From positions 1-35,300 of the forward strand of contig JACVJD010000025.1 in the NCBI GenBank assembly GCA_015711825.1: a stretch of DNA of 35,300 bases, given 5' to 3'. The stretch is from Candidatus Solincola daggyaiensis. Its GTDB lineage: Bacteria; Actinomycetota; Geothermincolia; Geothermincolales; RBG-13-55-18. Positions 7,678 to 35,300 of this stretch are shown piece by piece. Positions within the stretch are counted from its first letter, which is position 1. Each line of letters begins with the position of its first letter. The translations under genes were made by a program, and so were the position numbers. The notes beneath the pieces were generated by a model. It was not told the origin of the DNA. It did not search any database and saw nothing but the letters and a program-made list of their open reading frames with translations.

Positions 7678-7908
7678 TCAGGCCTGCTGCGGCGGTTTCC
7701 GGTATGCGGGAACCCCGTAAACTTTCTCATAAGCCCGGCACCAGGGGCACAGCTTCGTCCTGGACTCCATCTTGACCATCCAGTGAAAAAAGCCCTTGCC
7801 CTTCTCTCTGCCCAGCTTGCATACCGTGCACTTGTTCATGCACATATCCGCGCGCTTGCGCGTCTTCTCGTCCACCGGTGCGGTTTCAGGTGTTTGCTTC
7901 TCCATCAT
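7678..7908 (-). CDS. 76-aa four-cysteine mini-protein (probable zinc binding)
   Basis: The small, basic protein has CMNKCTVCKLG near residues 23-33 and LCPWCRAYE near 53-61. This gives two CxxC pairs (C27/C30 and C54/C57) plus Cys23, typical of a zinc knuckle or ribbon. Between them lies GFFHWMVKMES. Start ATG 7908 has AGGAG five bases upstream, a convincing site, which supports a real gene despite its size. It lies between the glycosidase and the two-module CxxC protein on the same strand, 248 nt from the latter. No family recognised. Confidence 0.6.
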   Translation of the reverse strand: MMEKQTPETAPVDEKTRKRADMCMNKCTVCKLGREKGKGFFHWMVKMESRTKLCPWCRAYEKVYGVPAYRKPPQQA

Positions 7909-8156: not shown

Positions 8157-9200
8157 CTAGGATGTCTCCACCCTCACCAGCACCGTCCCCTTCTCCGGTA
8201 CCTCCCAGGTGAACCGCTTTCCCTCCCCGGCGTAAACGGCGGCGACCATCCCCGCCACCATGGGCGCGTTGAAGGCGTTGCGCACCAGGATACCCGCCTT
8301 GAGCTCTTCCTCCCCCGGCCGCTCCCGGTCAGGGACCCCGAAGCCTCGCAGTTTCATGAAGGCGAGGTCGGAGAGAAAGGAGCCGGGGTGCTTTTGCGCC
8401 AGGCCGGAATAATAGTCTGCGGTGTACGCGTTGACCATGCGCGGGATGTCCTCGCCTATCTCCCTCTCCAGCTCCCGCAGCACGGTGTTCACCCCCTCCA
8501 CGTTGATGTATATTATCCATTCCCCCGTGTTGCGGTCGATGATCCTGCCCTGGGCGAGATCCCAGTGTAAGTTTCCTATGCCGAGAGGCACGCCACATTT
8601 CGCGCAGCGCTCGTAACCTGCTTGCGCCGACACCTCCGCGGTCTTCTCCAGCTCCAGCCGCTCCTCTGCGGGCAGGCTTTGATCCACGTAGAGCTCAAAG
8701 TACCACGCCTCACCTATGCTACCGTAAACCGGCCGCGCCCGCTTCCTCTCCAGGCTCTCGAAGGCCCCGCAAACGTCGCCCACGAACAGCACGGGGTGAT
8801 AAACGGGGAACGCCCTTCCGATAAACCTCTTGCCTTGCCGATAGGAAAGCAGCTGCGCCTTGGCCAGCCCGATGGTGGCCGCCTGCCTGATCATAACGGT
8901 ATAGCCAAGCCTGCGGAATGGGGCCAACCTTATTATCCTTCCCGCGACGCCGGATACCACGTCATCCACGTACAGCTTGGCATCGCGCCGCTTGGCGTCG
9001 ATGAGGATGCGGTCAAGGGGAACCCCGAGGGCCTCCTCCACTCTCTCCAGCACCCCGGCGAAGGCGTCCCTCTCTATCATGATCGCCCGCGTCGTCCCCA
9101 TGCGGCTTTCCAGGATGCCGTCATCCCTCCATCGGTGCATGAAAGCGATACGGTTGGGGACCCCACAATCCGGACAACCTTTAAACGAAGCGAACATCAT
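8157..9200 (-). CDS. Two-module CxxC/HxW protein with V4R-like domains (copy 1), function unknown
   Basis: 347 aa from ATG 9200 (GGGGTG upstream); a GTG at 9257 would add 19 unconserved residues. The protein is an internal duplication. Module 1 starts CPDCGVP (C9/C12) then MHRW (H22, W24) then DGIL. Module 2 starts CAKCGVP (C199/C202) then LHW (H212, W213) then GRII. Each is followed by an acidic helix ending in LGV/IGE and by a segment like HPVLFVGDVCGAF (135-147) or NAPMVAGMVAAVY (311-323). The last resembles the (P)xxxG-x-xxG helix of V4R ligand-binding domains, though V4R cysteines are missing. The same architecture recurs at 32702-33763. A cytosolic zinc-binding small-molecule sensor is my inference. 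No known family named. Confidence 0.75.
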   Translation of the reverse strand: MMFASFKGCPDCGVPNRIAFMHRWRDDGILESRMGTTRAIMIERDAFAGVLERVEEALGVPLDRILIDAKRRDAKLYVDDVVSGVAGRIIRLAPFRRLGYTVMIRQAATIGLAKAQLLSYRQGKRFIGRAFPVYHPVLFVGDVCGAFESLERKRARPVYGSIGEAWYFELYVDQSLPAEERLELEKTAEVSAQAGYERCAKCGVPLGIGNLHWDLAQGRIIDRNTGEWIIYINVEGVNTVLRELEREIGEDIPRMVNAYTADYYSGLAQKHPGSFLSDLAFMKLRGFGVPDRERPGEEELKAGILVRNAFNAPMVAGMVAAVYAGEGKRFTWEVPEKGTVLVRVETS

Positions 9201-9405: not shown

Positions 9406-9797
9406 AGAGGGAGCCGGCCTGTAAGCCGGATTCTGTACCCGGTGCGAACCGGGCGGTGGTCATCCATCTAGGACCGCCGTTGCCGGCGGCCTCCAGCGGC
9501 CCACCCGAGCCTCGAGCGCCGCGGGCCACGGCATCGGCTCCTATTTGGCCTTGCTCCGGGAGGGGTTTACCAAGCCGGCCCCGTCACCGGGACCGCTGGT
9601 GGGCTCTTACCCCACCTTTTCACCCTTGCCCACCGTTCCGCATACATCACGTCACCGGCGGGCGGTTTCCCTTTCTGTGGCACTTTCCGTCGGGTCACCC
9701 CGCCTGGGAGTTACCCAGCTCCCTGCCCTGTGGAGTCCGGACTTTCCTCGCGCGCGCCCTAGAGCGCGCCCGCGACCACCCGGCCGACTCCCTCTCT
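9406..9797 (-). ncRNA. rnpB: RNase P RNA
   Basis: Read on the minus strand, the region holds the universal bacterial RNase P core: GAGGAAAGTCCGGACTCC with CACAGGGCAG just after it, later GGGTAAGAGCCCACC, and AGAATCCGGCTTACAGG near the 3' end. The 5' end (GAGGGAGTCGG) pairs with the 3' CCGGCTCCCTC to form P1, which fixes the ends to within a few bases. The length (~390 nt) suits a type A molecule. The RNA is the catalytic subunit that matures tRNA 5' ends. A run of T after P1 (CTTTTCC) probably terminates it. A sigma70-type promoter lies just upstream. Confidence 0.95.
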
Positions 9798-22636: not shown

Positions 22637-24460
22637 TCATCCCGAGAGGAACTCCTTGCACATCTCCACCCCACGCTTGGGATCGAGGGTCCAGGCATCG
22701 GCGCCCACGTAATCCCTCACCTCCGGCGTGGTAGGCCCTCCCCCTATGATCACCAGACGCCCCTCGCGCAGCCCGTTTTCCCTGAGCGAATCCACCACCT
22801 CGCGCATGGAGTCGAAGGCGGGGGTGATGAGGGCGGACATGGCCACGATGGGGGCGCCGCTCTCCGCCACCTCGCGCACGAATTCGGTCGGCGCCACGTC
22901 CACGCCGAGGTCCCTCACCTCGAACCCCGCGGCCTTGAAGAGGGTGGCCACGATGTTCTTGCCTATATCGTGGATGTCCCCGGAGGGGGTGCCGATGACC
23001 ACGGGGCCGACGGCCGGCCCCTCTCTGCCGACCGCCATGAGCGGTTCCAGCTCCGCCAGCAGCTCCTTGAATATCTCGCCGGCCATGATGAGCTCGGAGA
23101 GGAAGTACTCGCCCGCGCTGTACCTCTCCCCCACCATCTCCATACCCCGCCGGCACTCCTCTATCACCGCCATCACCTCCTCGCCGGAGGCGAGGGCCTT
23201 CTGCACGCTCTCCTTCACATGGTCGTAAAGGAGCTGTGAGAAGGCCTGGGATATCTCACCCGACGGCCGCGTGAACTCCACCGCAGCCTCCTCGGGGCAT
23301 GGCGGCGCCGCCTCACGCGGTATCTTCTTGCCGCCGCGGTACCCCAGTCCCGTCTCCACCATGGCCCGGAGGTTCTCTGGCTTCACGTTCACGGGGCATT
23401 CGCATCCCGTGGTGAGCATGAAACCTCCCCCTTCCCCCACCTCGTCTATGAGCCGGCGGCAGTAGGCCGCGACGTCCTCCGGGCTTCCCAAGGTGAGCAA
23501 GGCGGCCGGGACGTCTCCGCTGATGCACATGTGCCCACCGAGGATCTCCTTGGCCCGGAAGATGTCCGTCATCCCGTCCAGGTCGCACACGCACTTGCCC
23601 CGCGGCAGCTCCCTGAGATAAGGCAGGTTGATACCCCAGTCGGTGTCGAAATGCAGCCAGGGCAGTATGCCTTCGGAGACGAAGGCGTCCACGTAGCGCT
23701 GCAGGAAAGGCCATTCGAAGCGCTCGAAGACCTCCAGCGGGTAATAGAAACCGGAGCCTCGCTCGAGGACGATGAAGGCGGTCATCTTGCCGTTCTCCCT
23801 GCACACCCGGACCGCGTTCTCGATGAGGTCGTCACAGGATGCGCGCATCGCCGCCTCCACCTTGTCCGGCACCTCGTGGAGGTCTCTGGTAAATTCCACC
23901 AGGGTGCGGCAGAGGGAGAAGGCCATCATCACCGAATCCACCGCCACCCCCAGGAACACCGGGGCGCCTTCCTCCTCGCATTTCCCCATGTCCTCCACGT
24001 AGAAGCGGTTGGAGAGCTCCTGCATGCCCTTCAGGCCCTCCCAGGACTTCCCGCTCATGACCTCGTAGCTCTCCTCCCAGTAAGCGTTCCATCCCATAGC
24101 CGCGATGCGGTCGTAGTCCTCGCGGGGAAAGAGGACCCGCTCGTCTATCTGGTAGAGAGCGTCCTCGGGAAGCTGCCTGCCCGGGATGAGGTTCCTCACC
24201 GGCGCGCCGCAGAACCTCCCCGGCAGCATGGGATAGTAATAATTGGGCTTGGATACGACGTCGTAACCGTATTCCCTCCAGCACCAGAGCAGCGCCTCGC
24301 GCGCCGCGTCGTGGTCGCGCCAGGCCTCTGCCTGGGTGATGCCGCGCAGTCGCGGCGCCGCGGTTACCAGGATGGGAAAGACGGGGTGCCGGTCCACCGG
24401 CTCCAGGGCGACGGCCGCCCGCATGCGTTCCTCCACGCTCATGTAGCCCACGCTCACCAT
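22637..24460 (-). CDS. Fusion of UroD-like methyltransferase and cobalamin-binding corrinoid protein
   Basis: 607 aa. Residues 7-370 form a uroporphyrinogen-decarboxylase-fold domain as in MtaA/MtbA methyltransferases (SVEERMRAAVALEPVDRHPVFP at the start, LHFDTDW at 269-275, GCECP at 352-356). Residues 400-480 are the four-helix cap (YFLSELIMAGEIFKEL). Residues 485-607 are the B12 domain with DIHDIGKN (cobalt-ligating His497), ALITPAF and GGGPTTPEV. Methyl transfer between a substrate, cobalamin and possibly an acceptor such as tetrahydrofolate fits. The usual zinc motif HxC reads H270-x-D272, with Cys353 later, so the metal site may differ. The two parts are normally separate proteins. ATG 24460 follows AGGAG closely; GTG 24457 or ATG 24442 are alternatives. 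Probably downstream of the dehydratase gene (133 nt). Confidence 0.85.
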   Translation of the reverse strand: MVSVGYMSVEERMRAAVALEPVDRHPVFPILVTAAPRLRGITQAEAWRDHDAAREALLWCWREYGYDVVSKPNYYYPMLPGRFCGAPVRNLIPGRQLPEDALYQIDERVLFPREDYDRIAAMGWNAYWEESYEVMSGKSWEGLKGMQELSNRFYVEDMGKCEEEGAPVFLGVAVDSVMMAFSLCRTLVEFTRDLHEVPDKVEAAMRASCDDLIENAVRVCRENGKMTAFIVLERGSGFYYPLEVFERFEWPFLQRYVDAFVSEGILPWLHFDTDWGINLPYLRELPRGKCVCDLDGMTDIFRAKEILGGHMCISGDVPAALLTLGSPEDVAAYCRRLIDEVGEGGGFMLTTGCECPVNVKPENLRAMVETGLGYRGGKKIPREAAPPCPEEAAVEFTRPSGEISQAFSQLLYDHVKESVQKALASGEEVMAVIEECRRGMEMVGERYSAGEYFLSELIMAGEIFKELLAELEPLMAVGREGPAVGPVVIGTPSGDIHDIGKNIVATLFKAAGFEVRDLGVDVAPTEFVREVAESGAPIVAMSALITPAFDSMREVVDSLRENGLREGRLVIIGGGPTTPEVRDYVGADAWTLDPKRGVEMCKEFLSG

Positions 24461-24593
24461 CGCTCCTTTCCCTCTTTCGAAGACGTTCTCAACACGGGCT
24501 GTTCACTGCATCTCAGCACCGCTCGCCATACCGGCAATTCATTGCCAGCGGCGGCTATCACTCCGCCCGACTAAAGGGCGATGACGCGACGCT

Positions 24594-26018
24594 TCAGTCC
24601 TCGATGCCGGCCAGGCGCTTGGCGATCTCCTTCTTCTCCTGGATGTCGTAGGTTCCCAGGATGGCGATGTCCTCCATGATGGGGGAGCCGCCGCCGTGCA
24701 CGCCGGCGTACTGCATGACCCCGGCCATGGAGGAACAGGAGAAGTCGCTTATCCATGCGAAGCACTTATATACGTTCTCGGCGCTCACGCCGTCCGCGCG
24801 CATGATGTATTTCTTCACCAGCTCGCCCACCTCCGGGCTGACCAGCTCCTCGCTGTAGGGTAGGGTGGCCGGCAGGCCCCCGGCTATCTCCGCCAGGATG
24901 TCGTACTCGTGGTACAGGTTCACCCCGGCGTGTTTGCGGGCCACGTTGCAGAAGACCACGTCCGGTATCTGGGTGCCGGACGGAGCCTTGGACGACTTCA
25001 CCGCCGCCGCGATACCGCAACCGTAAACCAGCTCCGCCACGCTGATGAGCTCGGCCAAGGCATGGCGCACGTGCTGCTCCCTCTCGATGCCGTTGTACTC
25101 CGCCGCCAGGGCGGTGGAGCCCATGATCACGTCGGACATGGCCGGCTTGCACCCGGTGTAGGAGTGGCGGTGATAAAGGGAGAAGAGCAGGGCGAGCTGC
25201 CCTCCGAACTCCGTCTCGCCGTTGAGGAAGACCCGGTCCCAGGGCACGAAGACGTCGTCGAAGATGGTCAGGGACTCGATCTCTCCCTTGCCCGAGAGCG
25301 CCGTCGCCACCTCGGGCACGCGGTCGCGGTACTTGGCGCCGCGGCAGACCAGCTTTACCCCCGGCCAGTCGCCGGGAACCGCGAAGGCCACCGCCCAGTC
25401 GCCCTCCTCGGGGGTGAGGAAGCGCGTGGGGGTCACGATGATCTCGTTGGCCAGGGGCGCGAAGGAGTTGTGGGCCTTGGCCCCCCGCACCACGATGCCG
25501 TCGCCGCGCCTCTCCACCACCCGCAGGTAGAGGTCGGGGTCGGCCTGCTCGTGGGGTCTTCTCTTGCGATGGCCCTTGACGTCGGTCTGGGCGCAGCAGC
25601 CCACGATGTCGTTGGCCTGCCAGAACTTAAGATACTCCAGGAAACGCTGGTGATACTCGGTGCCGTGGGCCTGGTCGCACTGGTAGGTGATCACCGAGAG
25701 GGCGTTCATGGCGTCGATGCCCATGCACCGCGCTATGCATCCCCCCACCAGGCGGCAGGACATACGCGTCATCTCCTGCTTGGCCAGGAGGTCCTCCGGG
25801 CTCTGATGGATGTGGCAGAAGCGGCTGACGGTCTCGCCGTTGAGGTGGGACTTTGCGGTGGTGAGGTGCTGCACTTCCTTGGCGTGAGCCAGCTCGATGG
25901 TGAGGTCCATGATGTCGGTTCCTGGAAGGTTTTCCCTTCCAAGCACCTCGCCACCCATGTACACGTTGGGCTTCATGGCCTTGAGGCTTTCGTGATACTC
26001 GTCGACGGTGCGGATCAT
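24594..26018 (-). CDS. abfD: 4-hydroxybutyryl-CoA dehydratase-type enzyme (AbfD/HpaB superfamily)
   Basis: 474 aa from ATG 26018 (GGAGG eight bases upstream; the TTG at 26033 is rejected). HpaB/PvcC flavoprotein fold. All [4Fe-4S] ligands of Clostridium aminobutyricum AbfD have counterparts: the GGCIARCMG pair (CxxxC) and H-x6-C in YHRHSYTGCKP, with the catalytic Tyr four residues after the His. Numbered from the longer frame these are C99, C103, H288, Y292 and C295, very near the reference C99, C103, H292, Y296 and C299. That separates it from the flavin monooxygenases, which lack the cluster. Expected reaction: 4-hydroxybutyryl-CoA to crotonyl-CoA via a ketyl radical, plus vinylacetyl-CoA isomerisation. 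A different acyl-CoA substrate is possible. Controlled by a strong promoter with paired operators and a divergent TetR. Confidence 0.88.
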   Translation of the reverse strand: MIRTVDEYHESLKAMKPNVYMGGEVLGRENLPGTDIMDLTIELAHAKEVQHLTTAKSHLNGETVSRFCHIHQSPEDLLAKQEMTRMSCRLVGGCIARCMGIDAMNALSVITYQCDQAHGTEYHQRFLEYLKFWQANDIVGCCAQTDVKGHRKRRPHEQADPDLYLRVVERRGDGIVVRGAKAHNSFAPLANEIIVTPTRFLTPEEGDWAVAFAVPGDWPGVKLVCRGAKYRDRVPEVATALSGKGEIESLTIFDDVFVPWDRVFLNGETEFGGQLALLFSLYHRHSYTGCKPAMSDVIMGSTALAAEYNGIEREQHVRHALAELISVAELVYGCGIAAAVKSSKAPSGTQIPDVVFCNVARKHAGVNLYHEYDILAEIAGGLPATLPYSEELVSPEVGELVKKYIMRADGVSAENVYKCFAWISDFSCSSMAGVMQYAGVHGGGSPIMEDIAILGTYDIQEKKEIAKRLAGIED

Positions 26019-26060
26019 CGCCATCCCCTCCAATATACTCGTTTCAGATATTGCCCTTTC

Positions 26061-26090
26061 ATTATAGAGTGACTATAATTATGGTGTCAA
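26061..26090 (-). promoter_or_regulatory. Consensus sigma70-type promoter of the dehydratase gene
   Basis: On the minus strand TTGACA (26090-26085), an 18-bp spacer and TATAAT (26066-26061): both hexamers are perfect. The start would be about 26054, giving a leader of about 36 nt with GGAGG. An operator-like inverted repeat overlaps the -10 box, so a strong but repressible promoter is expected. Confidence 0.85.
26063..26077. promoter_or_regulatory. Operator O1 (inverted repeat over dehydratase -10)
   Basis: TATAGAGTGACTATA: perfect 5-bp arms TATAG/CTATA around a 5-bp centre. It overlaps the -10 box of the dehydratase promoter. The same arms recur 31 bp to the right. Confidence 0.7.
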
Positions 26091-26093
26091 TTT

Positions 26094-26108
26094 TATAGTA
26101 AGTCTATT
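26094..26108. promoter_or_regulatory. Operator O2 (second copy, over the tetR -10)
   Basis: TATAGTAAGTCTATT: arms TATAG/CTAT(T), one mismatch from O1's pattern, centred 31 bp (about three helical turns) from O1. Its left half TATAGT could be the -10 of the divergent tetR gene, so one protein could silence both genes. Confidence 0.6.
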
Positions 26109-26124
26109 GGATTGAGGTTTATCA

Positions 26125-26787
26125 ATGGGGAATGACTACAAAGCCAGGGATAAATTCTCGAGTATCATTGAGGCTGCGCTCAAGGTCTTCGGCGAAAAGG
26201 GCTATTATAACGCCACCATCTCCGAGATCGCCCGCAAGGCGGGGGTTTCCGAGGCCACCATCTACGAATACTTCGGCAGCAAGGAGGACCTGCTCTTCGC
26301 CATTCCCAAGGAGATAACCACCCAGGCGGTGGATTTTCTGGAGGCCATAGGCCCGTATATCAGGGGCGCGGAAAACAAGATAAGGACCATCACTTACGGA
26401 TATTTCAACCTCTACCGCGACAACCCCGATTACTCCTCCCTGGTGCTCCTGGACCTCAAGCACAACCGCAAGTTCATGGAGGCCGAGGGCTACCAGGCGG
26501 TGAAGAGATCGGCGGGTTACCTGCTTTCCTGCATCAAGGAAGGGATCGCATCGGGCGAGTTCAAGCAGGGCCTGGATCCCTACCTGGTGCGCTCCATGAT
26601 CCTGGGAACCATCGAGCATGTGTTCTTCCGCTGGCACCTTCGCGGCCGCAGGGACGAGCTGGGGGATTTCGTGGACCCCATGCTGGACATGCTCTTCGAG
26701 GGGATAAGGAGCGAGCCCGAGCCGCGCGCCTACCAAATAAGCATCACCCTTCCCCCTCCCTCCTCCGCAAGGAACAAAGACGGTTGA
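26125..26787 (+). CDS. TetR-family regulator, divergent from the dehydratase
   Basis: 220 aa. The HTH reads SIIEAALKVFGEKGYYNATISEIARKAGVSEATIYEYFGSKEDLLFAIP, about residues 13-61, close in style to FadR/FabR-like fatty-acyl-CoA responsive TetR proteins. The C-terminal ligand domain includes LDLKHNRKFMEAEGYQAVKRSAGYL, followed by a Pro/Ser-rich tail. ATG 26125 follows GAGG seven bases upstream. The intergenic region contains paired inverted repeats overlapping both promoters, so it probably represses the dehydratase and itself and is released by an acyl-CoA (inference from family and layout). Confidence 0.88.
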   Translation: MGNDYKARDKFSSIIEAALKVFGEKGYYNATISEIARKAGVSEATIYEYFGSKEDLLFAIPKEITTQAVDFLEAIGPYIRGAENKIRTITYGYFNLYRDNPDYSSLVLLDLKHNRKFMEAEGYQAVKRSAGYLLSCIKEGIASGEFKQGLDPYLVRSMILGTIEHVFFRWHLRGRRDELGDFVDPMLDMLFEGIRSEPEPRAYQISITLPPPSSARNKDG

Positions 26788-26982
26788 GACGGACCGCACC
26801 GTCGGTGCCCTCGGCCAGCACCGCCACCGTGGCGACGAAACGACCGCGATATCACCTTATCCGACAGCACATACAACGAAGATGCGGTGCATGGTGCGGC
26901 GGATAGCCGACCACGTCGCCTGGGTTCATTTTCGATCGCCCATTGCCGCAACGTTTCCGCGGGCGATGATGCTGTTGCTCTT

Positions 26983-27006
26983 CGATAGGCGCTTTGCGGG
27001 TTGAAA
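26983..27006. repeat. 24-bp direct repeat, copy 1
   Basis: Identical to 27080-27103; starts CGATAGGCGC and ends GCGGGTTGAAA. The GTTGAAA end resembles the 3' end of many type I/III CRISPR repeats. The copies are separated by 73 bp and no third copy is seen. Confidence 0.7.
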
Positions 27007-27079
27007 CAGATGGTGAGGATTTCCCGTCATCTTGGAAAAACAAGCAAACCCGAAAACAGTCACCGATGCCTTGACGTTC

Positions 27080-27103
27080 CGATAGGCGCTTTGCGGGTTG
27101 AAA
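27080..27103. repeat. 24-bp direct repeat, copy 2
   Basis: Second exact copy, 97 bp from copy 1. Flanks differ apart from a loose TTG...TTC match just left of each copy. It lies 66 bp before the lipoprotein start codon. Confidence 0.7.
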
Positions 27104-27169
27104 ATCCGCCCCCTTGCGACGATAATAAGGCGACTACGATAAAAGCCTGAGACGGAAAGGGAGGAAGCG

Positions 27170-27610
27170 ATGAGAAGATCGTTGGTGCTGTTGCTGGCGC
27201 TGTGCCTTTGCGCCGCGGTTCTAGTGGCGGCCGGCTGCGGGGGCGGCGACAAGTCGGCCACGCCCGAGCAGGTGGTGGAGAAGTTCGTCAAGGCGGCCAT
27301 GGCCGGCGATGCCGATACCGCCTATTCCCTCATCTCCGAGTCCAGCAAGGGAGAGATCGAGAGCAAGGAGGAGCTGGTGGAGGGAGTGGGTGAAGGCGTG
27401 TCGGAATACTCGGTCGGCGGCGCCAGCATCTCCGGCGACACCGCCAAGGTGGCCACCAGCCTGACCCTGAAAGATCTCGAGTTCGAGATGGAGTTCGACA
27501 TGATCCTGGTCAAGGAGGGCGGCGCCTGGAAGGTCGACCTCGCCCAGACTCAGGCGGAGATGGAAAAAGCGGTCGAGGAGTTCATGCAGAATTTCGAGCT
27601 ACCTCAATAA
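27170..27610 (+). CDS. Small secreted lipoprotein (DUF4878-like)
   Basis: 146 aa. Signal peptide MRRS then a Leu/Ala-rich core, with lipobox VAAGC at Cys23, followed by a GGGDKS linker. The mature part (ATPEQVVEKFVKAAMAGDADTAYSLIS ... EEFDMILVKEGGAWKVDLAQ) has the NTF2/DUF4878 cystatin-like pattern: a first helix with VxxFxxAxxxGDxxxAxxLxS and a final GxWKVD strand. Role unknown; such proteins are anchored on the outer face of the membrane. Start ATG 27170 has GGGAGG six bases upstream. A strong terminator follows. Confidence 0.85.
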   Translation: MRRSLVLLLALCLCAAVLVAAGCGGGDKSATPEQVVEKFVKAAMAGDADTAYSLISESSKGEIESKEELVEGVGEGVSEYSVGGASISGDTAKVATSLTLKDLEFEMEFDMILVKEGGAWKVDLAQTQAEMEKAVEEFMQNFELPQ

Positions 27611-27629
27611 TCTGCCCAGGCGAGAAAAG

Positions 27630-27671
27630 AAAAACCCCCGCCCGCGGCAAACGCCGCGGGCATAGGTTTTT
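27630..27671. terminator. Bidirectional rho-independent terminator
   Basis: CCCGCGGC (27641-27648), loop AAAC, GCCGCGGG (27653-27660). Outside it AAAAACC (27630-27636) pairs with GGTTTTT (27665-27671), giving a T-run on both strands. It lies between the lipoprotein (+) and the membrane protein gene (-), which converge. Confidence 0.88.
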
Positions 27672-27722
27672 CCAAAGGGCCATAAAGGCGCCGGAAAGCC
27701 TAAGGCGCTCTTTTGGTTGCGC

Positions 27723-28328
27723 CTACGCGAAGTCCCCCCTCGACTCCGCCGCGGCCTTCATGCTCGCCTTGGGGCCGAGGGAGATGTGGACCTGGCTTAT
27801 GATGGTGGCGATCACCTGGTTCGCTATGGCCATGGCCGGATTGTGCCATACCAACCATATGATAAGGTCGATGGCGGTTATGACGGCTATGCTCAAGGCC
27901 CGGTTAGGCCAAGCCCTATGCTCTTTCTCGGCCTCCGACTGACGCCTCAGAAGCTCCTCGGACCGACGCAGCCTGCCCTCCGGATCGCTCAATTTATCGT
28001 TTTTCTCGAGCTCCTCCAAAGCTCCGGTTAAAGGTAACCGATACAGGCTCAGGAAGCTTCCGACGGTAAGCTTTTCCCCGCGCAGACCTCTCAGGGCGGA
28101 AATCCAGAGACCGTTAAGGCCGAGGTAGGAAAGGATGATGAATCCGATATAAGCGTTTCTTGCCTTGGCCTCGCCGGCCGTAAATGCCAGGACGGCAAGT
28201 GCCGCCAAGACCACCGCGTAGAAGACCAGCGTGCTCGTGAAATAGTTCCTTGTTTTCCTTTCCGATTCCCTCAGCGTCTTGACGATCATCTCGGTGTCGT
28301 CATGCTCGGATACGTCCATCCCCTTCAC
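27723..28328 (-). CDS. Membrane protein in the 2-hydroxyacyl-CoA dehydratase operon, function unknown
   Basis: 201 aa with four hydrophobic segments (about 30-50, 58-80, 143-163, 165-180). A charged cytoplasmic loop (GALEELEKNDKLSDPEGRLRRSEELLRRQSEAEKEH) lies between the second and third. No family recognised. Start GTG 28328 has GGAGG seven bases upstream. It follows the large dehydratase subunit by 24 nt on the same strand, so it is probably co-transcribed. A role as a membrane partner is possible but unsupported. Confidence 0.65.
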   Translation of the reverse strand: MKGMDVSEHDDTEMIVKTLRESERKTRNYFTSTLVFYAVVLAALAVLAFTAGEAKARNAYIGFIILSYLGLNGLWISALRGLRGEKLTVGSFLSLYRLPLTGALEELEKNDKLSDPEGRLRRSEELLRRQSEAEKEHRAWPNRALSIAVITAIDLIIWLVWHNPAMAIANQVIATIISQVHISLGPKASMKAAAESRGDFA

Positions 28329-28352
28329 GTGCGATCCTCCTTCCTCCTTGCA

Positions 28353-29702
28353 TCAGCTCTTTCTCACACCCTCCGGCGATGCCGTGCACAGCTCTTTCAG
28401 AAAGCGGTCGATGCGCGTCTTTACCACCATGAAATCGTCTCCGCGGTCGTCGACGCAGTCTCCGTCTATGACCAGCATGGGCAAGCCGTAAGTCCTGAAC
28501 TTCTCGGTTTCCATGCGCCCCGCGCAGTGGAAATGCCTGCATGACTTGGGATAGAAGGCGATGATGCCGTCCCCCGGTCTTATTACCCGCGCATAGAGCT
28601 CGACTCGCTGCTCTAAAGGGGTGTAGGCAGGGTTCAGCACCGTTCTGCGAGCGACGGCGCGGAAAGGATCGCCGGCGTCCAACTCGTCCCAATAACAATA
28701 ATTTACTATCGAGCCCACGATGTCCGCCCTCTCCTCTATGTAATCAAGGAGAGAATTCCTGTAATAAGGCCGCAGGTGAGCCCAGACGATCCTGGGCCTG
28801 GTGGAGGGCTCGCATTCCACCGCCGCGGCGGCCTCGATCTCCTGGTAGCGAGAGCGGAATATATCGACCAGCTCGCGTGCGCCCCAGGTCTGCATGAGAT
28901 TGGCCGCGTGGTCCATATCCTTCGACCCCCGCAGAAGAGGCCGGTCGCTGTAGTACGCAAGCTCGTTGCCCCTGGCGAGCCAGCGTCCCGCTTCGTTGCT
29001 GTTCCTTACCGCCTCGATCAGCTTTTCAAGCTCCAGTTTCGCCCCCGTTACCTCGGAGATGAAGGCCGCCATCCCCACCAGCTGTTCCGCAACGTAGTCG
29101 ATCGCCTCCTCCAGATCCGACGCGCCTCCTTCCCCCTCTTGCCTGCTCCAGGCGCCGTAGGGAACATCGAGCACGAACTCCGGCCGGTTGTATTTCGCGG
29201 ACGCGAACTCCGCCAGTTTCGCCGACGGGTCGCAAAGGTGGGTGGAGGTCAGTATGACGTCGGGACTGGGGAGGATATCCAGCAGCATGGCCCCCGCCGC
29301 CGCCTTCACGAAAGAGCACAGGTCGGGAGCGAACCCGTTCTCCTCCGCCTCCTCCAGGCACTTTACCGCCCTCCCCATCATGGAGACCTGCGCAGCGAAC
29401 ATCTCCAGGGTAAAAGGCATCAAGCCCATGGCATAGATTATCTCCGTGGGCATGAAAAGGCTCCGCCAAGCGACCGGATAGCTTTTGCCCTCATGGTATG
29501 GATGGCTTCCATAACAATGGAGAAACTGCTCGCTGAGCAGCCTCCCCCGCTTCTGGGAGGCTTTGAGCTCCTCCCAGGGCCTGGATAACGCCTTCTTCGC
29601 GTAGGAATCGTAAGCCTCCACGCTCAAGCCTTGAAAGGCGAGAAACCTCCGCCATTGCTCCTTCCTCAGCCTCTTATTCTCCTCCAACATGACCGTTTTC
29701 AT
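28353..29702 (-). CDS. 2-hydroxyacyl-CoA dehydratase / benzoyl-CoA reductase-type subunit (larger)
   Basis: 449 aa of the HgdB/FldB/BcrB superfamily (PF06050). Typical landmarks: MPTEIIYAMGLMPF (84-97), APDLCSFVKAAAG (Cys129), THLCDPSAKL (Cys157), FVLDVPYG (177-183) and late YPKSCRHFHCAGR (Cys388/393). Three of these cysteines should ligate a [4Fe-4S] cluster. Such subunits perform ATP-driven low-potential chemistry: removal of the 2-hydroxyl of an acyl-CoA, or ring reduction. Start ATG 29702 is one base after the stop of the preceding subunit; GGAGGAAGG precedes it. With the companion subunit it probably forms the heterodimeric catalytic component. Substrate not deducible. Confidence 0.85.
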   Translation of the reverse strand: MKTVMLEENKRLRKEQWRRFLAFQGLSVEAYDSYAKKALSRPWEELKASQKRGRLLSEQFLHCYGSHPYHEGKSYPVAWRSLFMPTEIIYAMGLMPFTLEMFAAQVSMMGRAVKCLEEAEENGFAPDLCSFVKAAAGAMLLDILPSPDVILTSTHLCDPSAKLAEFASAKYNRPEFVLDVPYGAWSRQEGEGGASDLEEAIDYVAEQLVGMAAFISEVTGAKLELEKLIEAVRNSNEAGRWLARGNELAYYSDRPLLRGSKDMDHAANLMQTWGARELVDIFRSRYQEIEAAAAVECEPSTRPRIVWAHLRPYYRNSLLDYIEERADIVGSIVNYCYWDELDAGDPFRAVARRTVLNPAYTPLEQRVELYARVIRPGDGIIAFYPKSCRHFHCAGRMETEKFRTYGLPMLVIDGDCVDDRGDDFMVVKTRIDRFLKELCTASPEGVRKS

Positions 29703-29703
29703 G

Positions 29704-30750
29704 TCAGGAAACCTTCCTCCTCCGCAACCTTTTCACGAAAGCCTCTATCTCCCGCGGATCGACCTTGCCGGATATATCGCTTTCCGCTATCTTCACCGGC
29801 ACCCCCCAGGCGGCTCTTTCCCTGAACAGCGGCCACTGGCCCTGCAGGTTGGAGCAGAACTTCATGGCGCAGTAGATGACCCCGTCCAAGCGGTATTCGC
29901 GGACGAGGGAGCGCAGTTCGTCCATCCCCGAGGCGGCCCGCCCGCCGAGCATGCGTGGGCATGGCGGTTTGGCCAGATAGGCCTCGGCGAGCGCGCGCAA
30001 CGGGTCCCCCTCCAGGTCGACTTTGCCGCGGCCAAACCTCATACCGTTGCAGGCATGCTCCAGCACCACCTCGCCGCCCGCCGATTCTATGAGTTCGTGG
30101 ATATGCACGCTGATAGGTCCTCCATAGATCATCAACCTGGGCCCTCGCCTTTCCCCCTTTTCCGCCGTCACTTCGATTCTCACCTCTTCCAGTTTTTCCA
30201 AAGACTCTTCGGGGGGACGGGTGAGGACGACGTGCAGTAGTCGCGCGAACTCCGAACCCCTGATGCCGGGGGGATCCGACATCCTCGAGCGTCGTATCTC
30301 CTCAAGCATCTCCCATAACGCGTCCCTCCGCCCTATGGCCTCCACCAGACGTTCCTCGGGGTAATCGCCGAAACGTCTTTTCACCGCATCCTGAAAACGC
30401 TTTATATTCGCCGCGAAAAAGGAGGCGCTTTTCATGTCCTTTTTTCTGGGAACATCGAGAAGATGGACCCACTGCCCGTCTCCTGCTTCCACCCCATGGG
30501 ACCAGGCGTCGAAAAGCCTGCGCATGCACTCGCAGGAATGGGCGATCACCGCCCCTTGGAATCGATCGTATGCTCCGCTCAGTTTTGCCCCCAGGCAGCT
30601 CCTTACGAACGAACAGGCGGCGTCGCCGAGGATGACGTCCTCGTGGCCCTTTCCCGAATCCTCCCTTATGCCATAGGGAACCAGTCCCGCGGCGTCAAGG
30701 ATTTCCAGGGGCGTATAGGTGCAGAACCAGGCGATCCTCGGTCTGCTCAT
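29704..30750 (-). CDS. 2-hydroxyacyl-CoA dehydratase-type subunit (smaller)
   Basis: 348 aa from ATG 30750 (AGGGCGGG upstream; longer ATG 30798 rejected). PF06050 landmarks: TPLEILDAAGLVPYGI (13-28), GDAACSFVRSCLG (Cys46), HSCECMRRL (Cys73/75), HLLDVPRK (97-103), YGGPISV near 210 and CAMKFCSN (Cys294/299). The Cys near 46, 75 and 299 are the likely cluster ligands. The ATG overlaps the activase stop codon (ATGA, 30747-30750), evidence of translational coupling. It pairs with the next gene as the two subunits of the dehydratase. Confidence 0.85.
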   Translation of the reverse strand: MSRPRIAWFCTYTPLEILDAAGLVPYGIREDSGKGHEDVILGDAACSFVRSCLGAKLSGAYDRFQGAVIAHSCECMRRLFDAWSHGVEAGDGQWVHLLDVPRKKDMKSASFFAANIKRFQDAVKRRFGDYPEERLVEAIGRRDALWEMLEEIRRSRMSDPPGIRGSEFARLLHVVLTRPPEESLEKLEEVRIEVTAEKGERRGPRLMIYGGPISVHIHELIESAGGEVVLEHACNGMRFGRGKVDLEGDPLRALAEAYLAKPPCPRMLGGRAASGMDELRSLVREYRLDGVIYCAMKFCSNLQGQWPLFRERAAWGVPVKIAESDISGKVDPREIEAFVKRLRRRKVS

Positions 30751-32231
30751 CCCGCCCTCCCCAGGTCGGCCCCGACATGTCGGTAATATTCGGGGCATGC
30801 GTAAAGGGTAGCAACCCTTTCACCATCAAGCAAAAAGCACACCAGGTCACATATGCGGTCGCGCCCGCAGCGCAGGCGAAGGTGTTCTTCGCATTCCTGG
30901 AAGCGCGATTCTATCCTCTGGACGGCGTCGAAGCCCCTGAAGCGGCTCGCCCCGTTGGTCTCGCGCCGCGCCAGCAGGGCCATCCCAAGCGCGCCCATTA
31001 CGCGATGGTGCAGAGGCACCTGGATCTCGCACCTCTCGCCGCGGCTCTCCTCGAGGCACTCCTCCAGCGCCTTCCGGACCCCGATGTTGGAGGCCACTCC
31101 CCCCTGAAAGGCGATGGGAGGGGTTATCTTTTTCTTGTTTATGCCCAGGGTCGAGAAGAAGTTCATGGCCAGGGAACGATGCAAACCCGCGATTATGTTC
31201 TCCTTGAAATTTCCCTTTGCCTGCTCCGAAACCAGGTCGCGCCCCACGAAGACCGTGCACATGCTGGAGAAGGTATAGGGCTTTTTCGCCCGCAAGGACA
31301 TCTCCCCGAACCTCTCCACCGGCACGCCCAGGCGCGCCGCTTGGGCATCCAGGAAGGCTCCGGTGCCCGCCCCACACTTGCGGTTCATCACCGCATCCAC
31401 CAGCACCCCGTCCTCCACGTACATGACTTTCGAGTCCTGGCCTCCGATATCGAAGATCACCCGCACTCCCGGGACCATATGCATGGCGGCCTCCGCGTGC
31501 GCGTCCAGCTCCGTTTCGTAGATATCCGCGTCAAGTATCCCCCTGGCGATCTCGTGGCCGCTTCCCGTAACCCCCGTGCCCGCTATCCTGACGTTGGCGG
31601 GCAGGCGCGAGGCGATTTTTCCCAGGGCCTTCTTTATGTTGTTGACCAGGTCTCCTTCGGTAAGGGTGTAATCGCTGGCGATCACCGTGCCTTCCTCGTC
31701 GATGACCACGGTGTTTATGGAGATGGAGCCCGCATCCAGGCCCAGGTAGGCATCCATGCCGTCCCTCCAGGCGCCCCTTCTCAACGCGTACAGCATGGGC
31801 ACTCCCTCGTGGGTGTATTTGAAAAGAGGCCGCTTCAGCCCGCGGAGAACCGCGTCTATGACCCCGACGGGATCGCGCCCGTTGTCCTCGTCGTCCACGT
31901 CGCGCAAGCGGCACCTCAGCCACAGCGAGGCGTCGCTGCTCCTTATTTCCATCAAGGCCCTTTCCTTTATCTTGAGGCGCACCATCACGCCGGAAGCCTC
32001 GCCCGGGGTACGGCTTGAAGGGCCGCCCCTGATCCATGCGTCCACCGCCTGGCCCTGCTTTCCCGCCATCTCCAGTATGGGGCGCAGCGCCGCCCACGCT
32101 TCCTCCTCGCTGCGCCTGAAATCCCCCGCCGGCAGGAACGGCAACTGGTAAAAGACCTCCTTGCCGTTCTCGGGCAGGTAAGAAAAGGCCATGTTCTCAG
32201 GCATATCCCATTTCACCTCTTTCTCTTCCAT
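30747..32231 (-). CDS. 2-hydroxyacyl-CoA dehydratase activase (BadF/HgdC family) with N- and C-terminal extensions
   Basis: 494 aa from ATG 32231 (GGAGG four bases upstream). The usual activase is ~260 aa. Here the ASKHA ATPase lies at 161-423: AYLGLDAGSISINTVV, GTGVTGSG, IFDIGGQDSK, then NRKCGAGTG (Cys286) and SSMCTVF (Cys325), the two cysteines that bridge the homodimer's [4Fe-4S] cluster, and FQGGVASN. It hydrolyses ATP to push electrons into the dehydratase. About 155 N-terminal residues form an unknown domain (DAWIRGG, MVRLKIKER). The 70-residue C-terminal tail carries five Cys (447, 455, 461, 465, 479), suggesting another metal site. First gene of the operon; divergent from the second two-module CxxC gene. 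Confidence 0.88.
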   Translation of the reverse strand: MEEKEVKWDMPENMAFSYLPENGKEVFYQLPFLPAGDFRRSEEEAWAALRPILEMAGKQGQAVDAWIRGGPSSRTPGEASGVMVRLKIKERALMEIRSSDASLWLRCRLRDVDDEDNGRDPVGVIDAVLRGLKRPLFKYTHEGVPMLYALRRGAWRDGMDAYLGLDAGSISINTVVIDEEGTVIASDYTLTEGDLVNNIKKALGKIASRLPANVRIAGTGVTGSGHEIARGILDADIYETELDAHAEAAMHMVPGVRVIFDIGGQDSKVMYVEDGVLVDAVMNRKCGAGTGAFLDAQAARLGVPVERFGEMSLRAKKPYTFSSMCTVFVGRDLVSEQAKGNFKENIIAGLHRSLAMNFFSTLGINKKKITPPIAFQGGVASNIGVRKALEECLEESRGERCEIQVPLHHRVMGALGMALLARRETNGASRFRGFDAVQRIESRFQECEEHLRLRCGRDRICDLVCFLLDGERVATLYACPEYYRHVGADLGRAG

Positions 32232-32701
32232 CACCCCTCCTAATTTCCTGTTGTTCTCTTTCGCCTGGGCCGGAGTAGGGTCCCTGGAATCCACGCCACG
32301 TGCACGCTGAATCCGTTAGTTCCTCTTGCGATCCGGCGACTCCGTCGATCCACACCGGCTCTGAGCTTAAACCTTTGCCGACTCCGCGGGACGCTCCCGG
32401 CACCGCTCACACGGGAGCTACCCACATGCCAACGCCATCTCCCTCGGGCAACCCTTTCATAACCTTTGATCACGGCTCCTTCTCCGGCGCTCCCGACTGT
32501 TTGCTGGGATATATTAACATTTAGGGCTTTCCCTCGGAGCCAGCGTTCAACCGATGTTAACACGTCGGTAGCAACAAGGTTTCACATGCAATTTTTCGAG
32601 TACTCGGTTCCGCGGGAAACGTTAAGTACGACTCGATATGTTCCGAAATATTTATTGGCGACCAAAAAGGCCGACAAGAATCGAGCGGGGAGGCGGGGAG
32701 G
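32232..32701. other. Divergent intergenic region upstream of activase and two-module gene
   Basis: 470 nt, becoming AT-rich toward the right. A perfect 10-bp palindrome CGAGTACTCG (32597-32606) and a distant inverted pair TTAACAT/ATGTTAA (32514-32520, 32554-32560) are possible regulator sites, but neither stands out statistically. No convincing sigma70 promoter or RNA gene found. Confidence 0.4.
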
Positions 32702-33763
32702 ATGAGAAGACCAGACCTATGCAGTAGCTGCGGGATACCTCTCTATGTCGGAAAAATGCACCAATGGAGTGGCGACGGGGTGATCATCCATAAAGTCATG
32801 TCACGTTCTAACGTCTTTTTTATGGAATCGGAGAATATCGACGCGGTTTTCAACACCCTGGACAGAGAACTCGGCGTCCCTATCGAGAACATAATCATGG
32901 AATGCACGCGCCGGGGAAACAGGAGATTCATGGAGCAAAACATCCCTGCGCCGCTGCGGTGGATGCTGTCTTACATGCCGCGCCTTTCAAGTGGACTCAT
33001 ATCTTACGCCGGCAAAACCCTCGGCTTCGGATCATCCGAGTTCGTCGGCGCAAGAAGGAGGGGTGACGAGAAGGATTGCTTGGTGCATATAATCCATGAC
33101 CCCTATTCCCTTTCCTCCATGCTCGCGGATGCTTTAGGAGTAACCGAGGCCTTCACGGGACAAGACGGAACGGTGGAGGGCCTGCCCCTTGGCGGCGACA
33201 GCTATCTCGTGGTCATGCGAACCGGCGAGCATCGCACCGGGCTCGAAGAGCGGCTGCAGCTGATCCACCCTCCGGTAAAAACGATCGGCTACGACCTCCC
33301 GCGCTGTGAAAAATGCCGACTTCCACTTGAACTGAGCGCAAGGTATAGGTGGGACATGAGGAAAGGGTTCATTCTCAGCAAGGCCTCCGGAAGGAGAATG
33401 GTGATCACCGGGTTCGACAATTACGAGGCGGTTTTTCGCGAGATAGAGGAGGAGATCGGCGAGGGGATATCGCAGGTCATCGTGGATGCCCAGAGAGAAT
33501 TCGTGCTCCATAGCAATTGGGATGAGAATTGGATCGAGAGCGAAAGCGCCCTGCGCATCAACCTGATGCTGAGAGGGTTAGGGTACCTCTCATCTTACTT
33601 CCAGGACGGCGAGCATTTGAAGGTGACCATCCTCAACTGCCTCATACCCAAACAGGTGGTGGGAATGCTGCAGGGTTTCTACGAGCTTGATAGCGGAAAG
33701 GACAGCAGTACCTGCGTATGGAGCGTGGGGCAGGAGGCGGATTTGCAAATAGAGCTCTCCTGA
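32702..33763 (+). CDS. Two-module CxxC/HxW protein with V4R-like domains (copy 2), function unknown
   Basis: 353 aa; ATG 32702 with GGGAGG eight bases upstream. Same layout as 8157-9200. Module 1: CSSCGIPL (C7/C10), MHQW (H20, W22), GVII, then an acidic helix ending RELGVPIENIIMECTRRG, the counterpart of copy 1's EALGVPLDRILIDAKRRD. Module 2: CEKCRLPL (C202/C205), YRW (215-217), GFIL, then EEEIGEGISQ beside copy 1's EREIGEDIPR. The module distance is 195 residues (190 in copy 1). Segments HDPYSLSSMLADALG and IPKQVVGMLQGFYE occupy the V4R-like helix position. In module 2 His is replaced by Arg216. It is divergent from the dehydratase activase. A sensor or accessory role to CoA enzymes is only inference. 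Confidence 0.78.
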   Translation: MRRPDLCSSCGIPLYVGKMHQWSGDGVIIHKVMSRSNVFFMESENIDAVFNTLDRELGVPIENIIMECTRRGNRRFMEQNIPAPLRWMLSYMPRLSSGLISYAGKTLGFGSSEFVGARRRGDEKDCLVHIIHDPYSLSSMLADALGVTEAFTGQDGTVEGLPLGGDSYLVVMRTGEHRTGLEERLQLIHPPVKTIGYDLPRCEKCRLPLELSARYRWDMRKGFILSKASGRRMVITGFDNYEAVFREIEEEIGEGISQVIVDAQREFVLHSNWDENWIESESALRINLMLRGLGYLSSYFQDGEHLKVTILNCLIPKQVVGMLQGFYELDSGKDSSTCVWSVGQEADLQIELS

Positions 33764-34151: not shown

Positions 34152-35300
34152 ATGCGCGCGAAAACGAGGGCGGCAAAGACTTTGGGGGCGATTGTTTCCT
34201 CCGTCTTGCTGATGATGTGCCTTATCTCCTTTTTCCCAACCGCTGAAGCCGAGCCGGTGGGAGACGACTTCGAGGTTATGAGCTCCGAGGCGGTCACCCT
34301 GGACACCGATTTCAGCGGCGAGATCGAAAAGGGCCGGGTCATCACCTTCTTCGGGCTCACCGGAAACGGCGAGACGCAGGTAGCGAAGACCAACGATCTC
34401 GAGGGCGGCGGAAGGTGGCAAGGCGTGCATGCCTTCACCACCCCGAGGCTGGAGGAAGACACCTTGGTGTGGAGGAACCTGCGCGTGGACGGGTTCCGCA
34501 ACGTCATGAGCCTCATGGAATTCGGGGGTGAGGTAGCGGAGGAAGTCAAGTTAAAGGTGCCTTTGAAGTTGGAATACAGGTATTTTATGGATGGACAAAG
34601 GGTGGAAGACCCCAACCAGATAACCGGACAGAACGGCCGCTTCCGGCTGGAGCTCACCATGACCAACACCAGCGCCGAGAATCGCTTAGTGGAATACCAA
34701 GACCCGGAAACCGGGGAAACGGTGGAAAGACAAGCCGAGGTGTACCTGCCGCTGGTGATCCTGCCCTACGACTGGTATTTCGACAACGATATCTTTTACA
34801 ACCTCGAGGCAGATCCCACGGGTGTGGTGGTCCCCCTCCCGGATCACTGGCAGGTGGGATGGTCCATACCGCTCTTTCCCCCTGCCACGGAAGATACCCA
34901 CACCATCTGGGTGGAAGCGGACGTGAAGGATTTCCGGTTGCCCCCCCTGGTGCTTTCGGCCAACTTCATCTTTCCGCAGACCAACCAGAGGGACCCCCTC
35001 GGCGAATTCGTTGCGGGCTTGACTCAACTCTACGATGGGGTCAAGCAGCTTCATGCGGGCCTGCTGGAAGGCGAGCAGGGGATCGGAGGCCCTGAGCAGG
35101 AAGGCACCTTGCTTTACGGCACCAACGCCATACTGGACGGGCTAAAGCAGATGGCCAGCGTATCGAGCGGCCTCCCATTCGCGAAGGCAAACCTGGATTC
35201 CCAGATCATACCAGGCATCAATCAGATAACCGACGGCATGGGCTCCGCGGACACGCCCGACACCTTGCTTTACGGGGTAAGCGAATCCACCAAGGGTCTG
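34152..35300 (+). CDS. Large secreted protein, 3' truncated by window edge
   Basis: 383 codons visible from ATG 34152 to the right edge without a stop; GGGGGGGT lies about seven bases upstream. A Sec signal peptide is clear: MRAKTRAAK, a hydrophobic stretch to about residue 28, then PTAEAEP. The next ~240 residues look like beta-sandwich domains (for example FRLELTMTNTSAENRLVEYQDPETGE, a conserved-repeat/DUF11-like pattern). From about residue 284 there is a helical region of LYDGVKQLHAGLLEG and LLYGTNAILDGLKQ type, with a second TLLYG copy at 373-377. Such Gly/Leu heptad-like segments recall the extracellular coil of YhgE/Pip and MMPL-linked proteins. The full role cannot be judged from this part. 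Confidence 0.8.
   Translation, partial: MRAKTRAAKTLGAIVSSVLLMMCLISFFPTAEAEPVGDDFEVMSSEAVTLDTDFSGEIEKGRVITFFGLTGNGETQVAKTNDLEGGGRWQGVHAFTTPRLEEDTLVWRNLRVDGFRNVMSLMEFGGEVAEEVKLKVPLKLEYRYFMDGQRVEDPNQITGQNGRFRLELTMTNTSAENRLVEYQDPETGETVERQAEVYLPLVILPYDWYFDNDIFYNLEADPTGVVVPLPDHWQVGWSIPLFPPATEDTHTIWVEADVKDFRLPPLVLSANFIFPQTNQRDPLGEFVAGLTQLYDGVKQLHAGLLEGEQGIGGPEQEGTLLYGTNAILDGLKQMASVSSGLPFAKANLDSQIIPGINQITDGMGSADTPDTLLYGVSESTKGL

Follow-up and report, generated by a model that had tools for sequence, protein, structure and literature searches.

What kind of protein is encoded on the minus strand at positions 8157-9200 of a 35,300-nucleotide stretch of Candidatus Solincola daggyaiensis DNA (the window), and what might it do for the organism? 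The original prediction saw in it an undescribed family of proteins with two modules, each opening with a CxxC hairpin and continuing into a fold resembling the V4R small-molecule-binding domain, and pointed to a second copy in the same window. The open reading frame is indeed found at that place, and with the start given in Table 1 its first knuckle cysteine is residue 8. Copy 2, which is 22% identical to copy 1, follows the same two-module plan and is a distant paralogue belonging to copy 1's family, as had been supposed.

Table 1. Coordinates in the window of the two family copies, the parts of copy 1 and the adjoining genes
Feature	Position	Strand	Description
Copy 1	8157..9197	-	346-aa tandem V4R-like CxxC protein; ATG at 9197 is the likely and better start
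Copy 1 module-1 knuckle	9129..9176	-	C8-x2-C11-G-V-P14, then H21-x-W23
Copy 1 module-1 V4R-like core	8640..9128	-	residues ~24-186 including linker; from DSSP of the model and hhalign
Copy 1 module-2 knuckle	8562..8606	-	C198-x2-C201-G-V-P204 and W212
Copy 1 module-2 V4R-like core	8160..8561	-	residues ~213-346; from hhalign against V4R
Copy 2	32702..33763	+	353 aa, two-module plan as in copy 1
Mini-protein	7678..7908	-	76 aa, two CxxC; adjoins copy 1 only in some genera
RNase P RNA	9406..9791	-	RF00010, 313 bits; adjoins copy 1 on its upstream side, outside the system

Internal duplication and predicted interlocking of the halves

When the family alignment was halved, the profiles of module 1 and module 2 matched over 169 columns (probability 99.7, E 1.2e-25), and with 67 members the match had a probability of 99.8 and an E-value of 2e-30. 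By profile comparison, therefore, the two halves are homologous over the whole length of the protein, far beyond chance, and the predicted internal duplication is real. An AlphaFold2 model of the full chain, for which the input was an eight-sequence alignment of the window copies and related loci, has a pLDDT of 85.6 and a pTM of 0.86, and the order of strands and helices is identical in both of its halves, which is the repeated fold that had been anticipated.

The halves are duplicated, but modelling speaks against reading them as two separate modules. Module 2 modelled alone at the same alignment depth (the shallow eight-sequence alignment) gave a low-confidence model with a mean pLDDT of only 60.7, and the pLDDT of its knuckle region is about 40-50 alone versus about 90 in the full chain. 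This fall points to halves that complete each other, as happens in the sensor dimer of DmpR, which is interlocked by intertwining residues 18-45 (PMC7264223), and the modelling suggests that the halves need each other to fold and form one interlocked pseudo-dimer.

Relationship to the V4R superfamily

V4R, H-NOX and TRAPP proteins belong to one fold superfamily. In a Foldseek comparison of the full-chain model with the PDB, the top hits were the phenol-sensing V4R domains of DmpR, PoxR and MopR (E 8e-4 to 5e-3, probability 1.00), with target-normalised TM-scores of up to 0.60, which are modest, followed by H-NOX domains and then TRAPP subunit 3; a Foldseek search of the viral fold library (BFVD) returned nothing meaningful. 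The Pfam V4R profile PF02830 did not match the family above its cut-off, and searching the class genomes with PF02830 brought up only other genes. The class also has stand-alone V4R proteins (PF02830; L079-L100), which aligned with module 2 in hhalign over 114 columns (E 2.8e-6, probability 88), including the 'D..G.I' hairpin, the G-x-G and the last helix, and with module 1 in the same register at E 1.6e-3, a match that is weak alone; reversed or shuffled controls gave E-values of 0.02-0.36. The fold search and the profile comparison thus agree with the initial guess of a V4R-like fold, and we hold both the fold and homology to the V4R superfamily to be highly probable. The stand-alone proteins differ in having a single module with the V4R cysteine signature, and in number, with 0-4 copies per genome in 12 of the 31 class genomes. 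Several class genomes carry adjacent pairs of such single-module genes (L079, L080, L086-L089 and others), which could possibly be a parallel to, or the ancestor of, the tandem family.

The likeness to DmpR, PoxR and MopR, which are XylR-type sigma-54 activators, consists of the predicted fold across about one module, including the N-terminal strand and helix, and of the glycine motif in the last helix, a glycine-pair helix-packing motif that is common to V4R and Bet3 (PMC2253512). Unlike those activators, whose sensor works as an interlocked dimer, the family has two modules in one chain and is devoid of an AAA+ or DNA-binding domain; the zinc ligands of the DmpR V4R domain, Cys151, Glu172, Cys177 and Cys185 (PMC7264223), are absent from it, and a CxxC knuckle has been added at the start of each module. 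With H-NOX domains the family has the fold superfamily in common (Foldseek probability up to 1.00), but none of its histidines is conserved in the 67-member alignment, in contrast to the haem-ligating histidine of H-NOX. TRAPP Bet3/TRAPPC3 likewise shares the fold superfamily and the glycine-pair helix motif, whereas the family is a tandem with CxxC knuckles that has expanded in prokaryotes and has no copy-number link to roadblock proteins. The best local Pfam similarity is to zf-Mss51, over a short CxxCGxP...H stretch of about 20 residues (best E 3e-4); copy 1 scores 16.9 bits against a curated cut-off of 27 and so falls below it, and the resemblance to other Zn-knuckle Pfam families is just as local.

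Conserved residues and a putative shared zinc site

Which residues define the family? All four cysteines, one CxxC per module, are kept in 65 of 65 aligned members and are followed by G-x-P in nearly all of them. The tryptophan of module 1 is equally invariant (65/65), and that of module 2 is found in 61 of the 65, the other four having phenylalanine. The CxxC/HxW motif that had been assigned to each module is therefore only partly upheld: the cysteines and, very nearly, the tryptophan stand, but the histidine is present in only 19 of 63 members, so it is not a defining ligand, and HxW was rejected as a metal motif. The zinc-ribbon-like hairpin proposed for the start of each module is supported by the CxxC conservation and by the weak Pfam Zn-knuckle matches. 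Among the same 65 members the G-x-G that precedes the final strands and helix hardly varies, and the last helix has [GA]xxx[GA] in 61/63 members in module 1 and 62/63 in module 2, the strict form GxxxG occurring in 34/63 and 35/63. As had been noticed for the window copy, the V4R cysteines are gone from both modules: at least three cysteines are found in the part corresponding to the V4R Cys-Glu-Cys-Cys ligands in 4/63 members for module 1 and 0/63 for module 2. The conserved residues are cysteine, glycine, proline, tryptophan and a few arginine, glutamate and asparagine residues, with no obvious catalytic constellation, and an enzyme was rejected on this ground; a column analysis for specificity positions was weakly informative.

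The 67-member alignment holds no conserved cysteine or histidine besides the four of the CxxC pairs. Because these four lie two per half in the arm region, with no other candidate ligand, the simplest explanation is that they share one metal ion, and the family probably has a single Zn(Cys)4 site to which each module contributes one CxxC and which staples the halves together.

A class-restricted and expanded family

The original prediction missed the scale of the family: some 19 family loci were counted in the host genome (3.0 Mb in 190 contigs), of which 17 are complete and 2 run off a contig end, and the expansion is class-wide. All 31 class genomes searched (the host and 30/30 others) are positive, with 2-55 copies each, these being counts of matches that may include fragments. 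The named relatives that carry the family include Candidatus Geothermincola primus, so the class is the one around Candidatus Geothermincola. Among the relatives searched, 0/8 genomes of other classes had the family, and in a profile search of 198 Actinomycetota genomes the 16 positives all belonged to the host's class, leaving 0/182 positive outside it. A scan of the whole collection with six short peptide patterns of copy 1 reached close relatives only. Within Actinomycetota, restriction to the class, together with expansion in it, is strongly supported by these sequence searches. In the genome with the most copies, 55 of them at 1.05 kb each would fill an estimated 1.5% or so of its 3.9 Mb.

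That the family was undescribed agrees with searches of Pfam, NCBIfam, PADLOC and PDB sequences, none of which gave a significant match. Matches to rubrerythrin and L37 were set aside as chance or knuckle matches. No PADLOC model for anti-phage defence matched. A viral or plasmid origin was rejected because tblastn found nothing in phages or plasmids and no relative turned up among the viral contigs, each tested with one query.

The tree, built from 63 members of four genomes, places most host-genome copies next to an orthologue from a genus mate, and its deeper groups bring together members from different families of the class. Across 15 orthologue pairs dN/dS is 0.09-0.29, and purifying selection on the family is strongly supported. 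A genus mate has a five-gene tandem array of family copies (L047, 5077-11881) in which two proteins are identical, as if a two-gene unit had recently been duplicated, and in genome G019 a family copy beside an intact one is split into two overlapping frames of 149 and 218 aa (L061, 5016-6109) and is probably a decaying gene. Taken together, the orthologue pairing, the tandem array, the dN/dS values and the apparently decayed copy indicate a birth-and-death family under purifying selection.

Gene neighbourhood and candidate partners

Gene calls at the loci were made with a simple codon-usage script. The copies mostly stand alone, the gaps to their neighbours usually exceeding 100 bp, and the flanking genes are varied: ABC transporter, radical SAM, acyl-CoA dehydrogenase, tRNA synthetase, response regulator and others. 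No conserved operon partner was found at the loci examined, where neighbours are diverse. The called copies, at up to 412 aa, have no room for a large output domain. The CxxC mini-protein that had been pointed out next door to copy 1 is real and conserved, but it is not a general partner, since it occurs almost always as a single copy and is a neighbour of copy 1 in part of the class only, being apart from it in much of the class; as an obligate partner it was rejected.

Several other features of the window may be recorded here. Gene order in the RNase P RNA stretch is kept in related genera. Positions 22640-32294 hold a cluster of anaerobic acyl-CoA and C1-type genes, comprising an HpaB-type dehydratase/hydroxylase, a corrinoid/URO-D methyltransferase-like protein, two HGD-D dehydratase subunits and a BcrAD/BadFG activator. 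Downstream of copy 2, an open-ended 373-aa reading frame at 34182-35300 on the plus strand has no Pfam match.

Possible functions

What might so many divergent copies be doing? The cytosolic ligand sensor or carrier that the original prediction envisaged is plausible. A sensor is suggested by the superfamily and by the number of divergent, maintained paralogues, and readout by a partner in trans by the lack of an output domain in every examined copy. Our tentative preference, whose chances we would put somewhat below even, is for a soluble protein that unites two V4R pockets in one chain as a pseudo-dimer, has hydrophobic small molecules as its ligands and works in trans. The chain could be viewed as a covalent version of the interlocked DmpR/PoxR/MopR sensor dimer, in which the two knuckles, set in the intertwining arms, would jointly hold the one Zn(Cys)4. 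The pocket or pockets of every paralogue would accept a metabolite of their own, hydrophobic or aromatic, and ligand binding would shift the stapled arms, a shift that the partner would read.

The paralogues might instead be carriers or chaperones that shield a hydrophobic acyl or aromatic intermediate and deliver it to an enzyme, with no part in signalling. Such a role would agree with the missing output domain, with a TRAPP subunit among the V4R/TRAPP relatives that has covalently bound palmitate (6aq3), and with the position of some copies beside redox or acyl-CoA enzymes (acyl-CoA dehydrogenases next to L017, and a few FAD and 4Fe-4S proteins). We regard it as rather unlikely, given that such varied neighbours do not suit a fixed enzyme partner and that most copies are separate genes with gaps above 100 bp. 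It is less likely still that the CxxC pairs, and not a pocket ligand, do the sensing, as in a redox or oxygen switch of the kind suggested for the V4R-containing MsvR of methanogens. Invariant CxxC pairs would suit such a switch, and a V4R regulator is known whose DNA binding is redox-sensitive and modulated by cysteines (PMC3729527); but a single redox signal is hard to fit with twenty to fifty divergent paralogues per genome, the cysteines lie in the new N-terminal knuckle and not at V4R positions, and CxxC-G-x-P resembles structural Zn knuckles, albeit in weak Pfam matches. We give a similarly small chance to nucleic-acid-binding regulators, in which the two knuckles would form a zinc ribbon that contacts DNA or RNA close to the genes controlled, with effectors sensed by the V4R pockets: the ribbon-like knuckles and the dispersal of copies near many different genes fit this reading, but the database searches found no helix-turn-helix or other known nucleic-acid-binding family. 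A scaffold or trafficking-like role, as for TRAPP/Bet3 with roadblock proteins, is very improbable and was rejected despite the fold relationship to TRAPP subunits and the presence of roadblock genes in most class genomes, because these number 1-3 per genome where found, are mostly clustered and do not scale with the 2-55 family copies.

If the single-chain sensor acting in trans is the right reading, it can be extended to a history that is possible but distinctly more doubtful: one ancestral V4R protein may have been duplicated in tandem, lost the classical V4R metal site, gained a trans-module Zn(Cys)4 staple and then diversified, in some genomes into up to 55 paralogues, giving the class a private repertoire of proteins for different hydrophobic metabolites with partners in trans. 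Were this true, it would be a large soluble ligand-sensor family without counterpart in other lineages. The seven V4R genes of Ignicoccus hospitalis have been called unusually many for an archaeon (PMC2253512), and a V4R-derived family of the size seen here offers a system for studying how diverse specificities arise on one ligand-binding fold. The idea of a pseudo-dimer with a shared zinc is directly testable. Although none of the genomes searched in this little-studied class lacks the family and its copies number up to 55, Pfam and NCBIfam contain no entry for it, and it may offer a route to the signals that dominate in these uncultured Actinomycetota.
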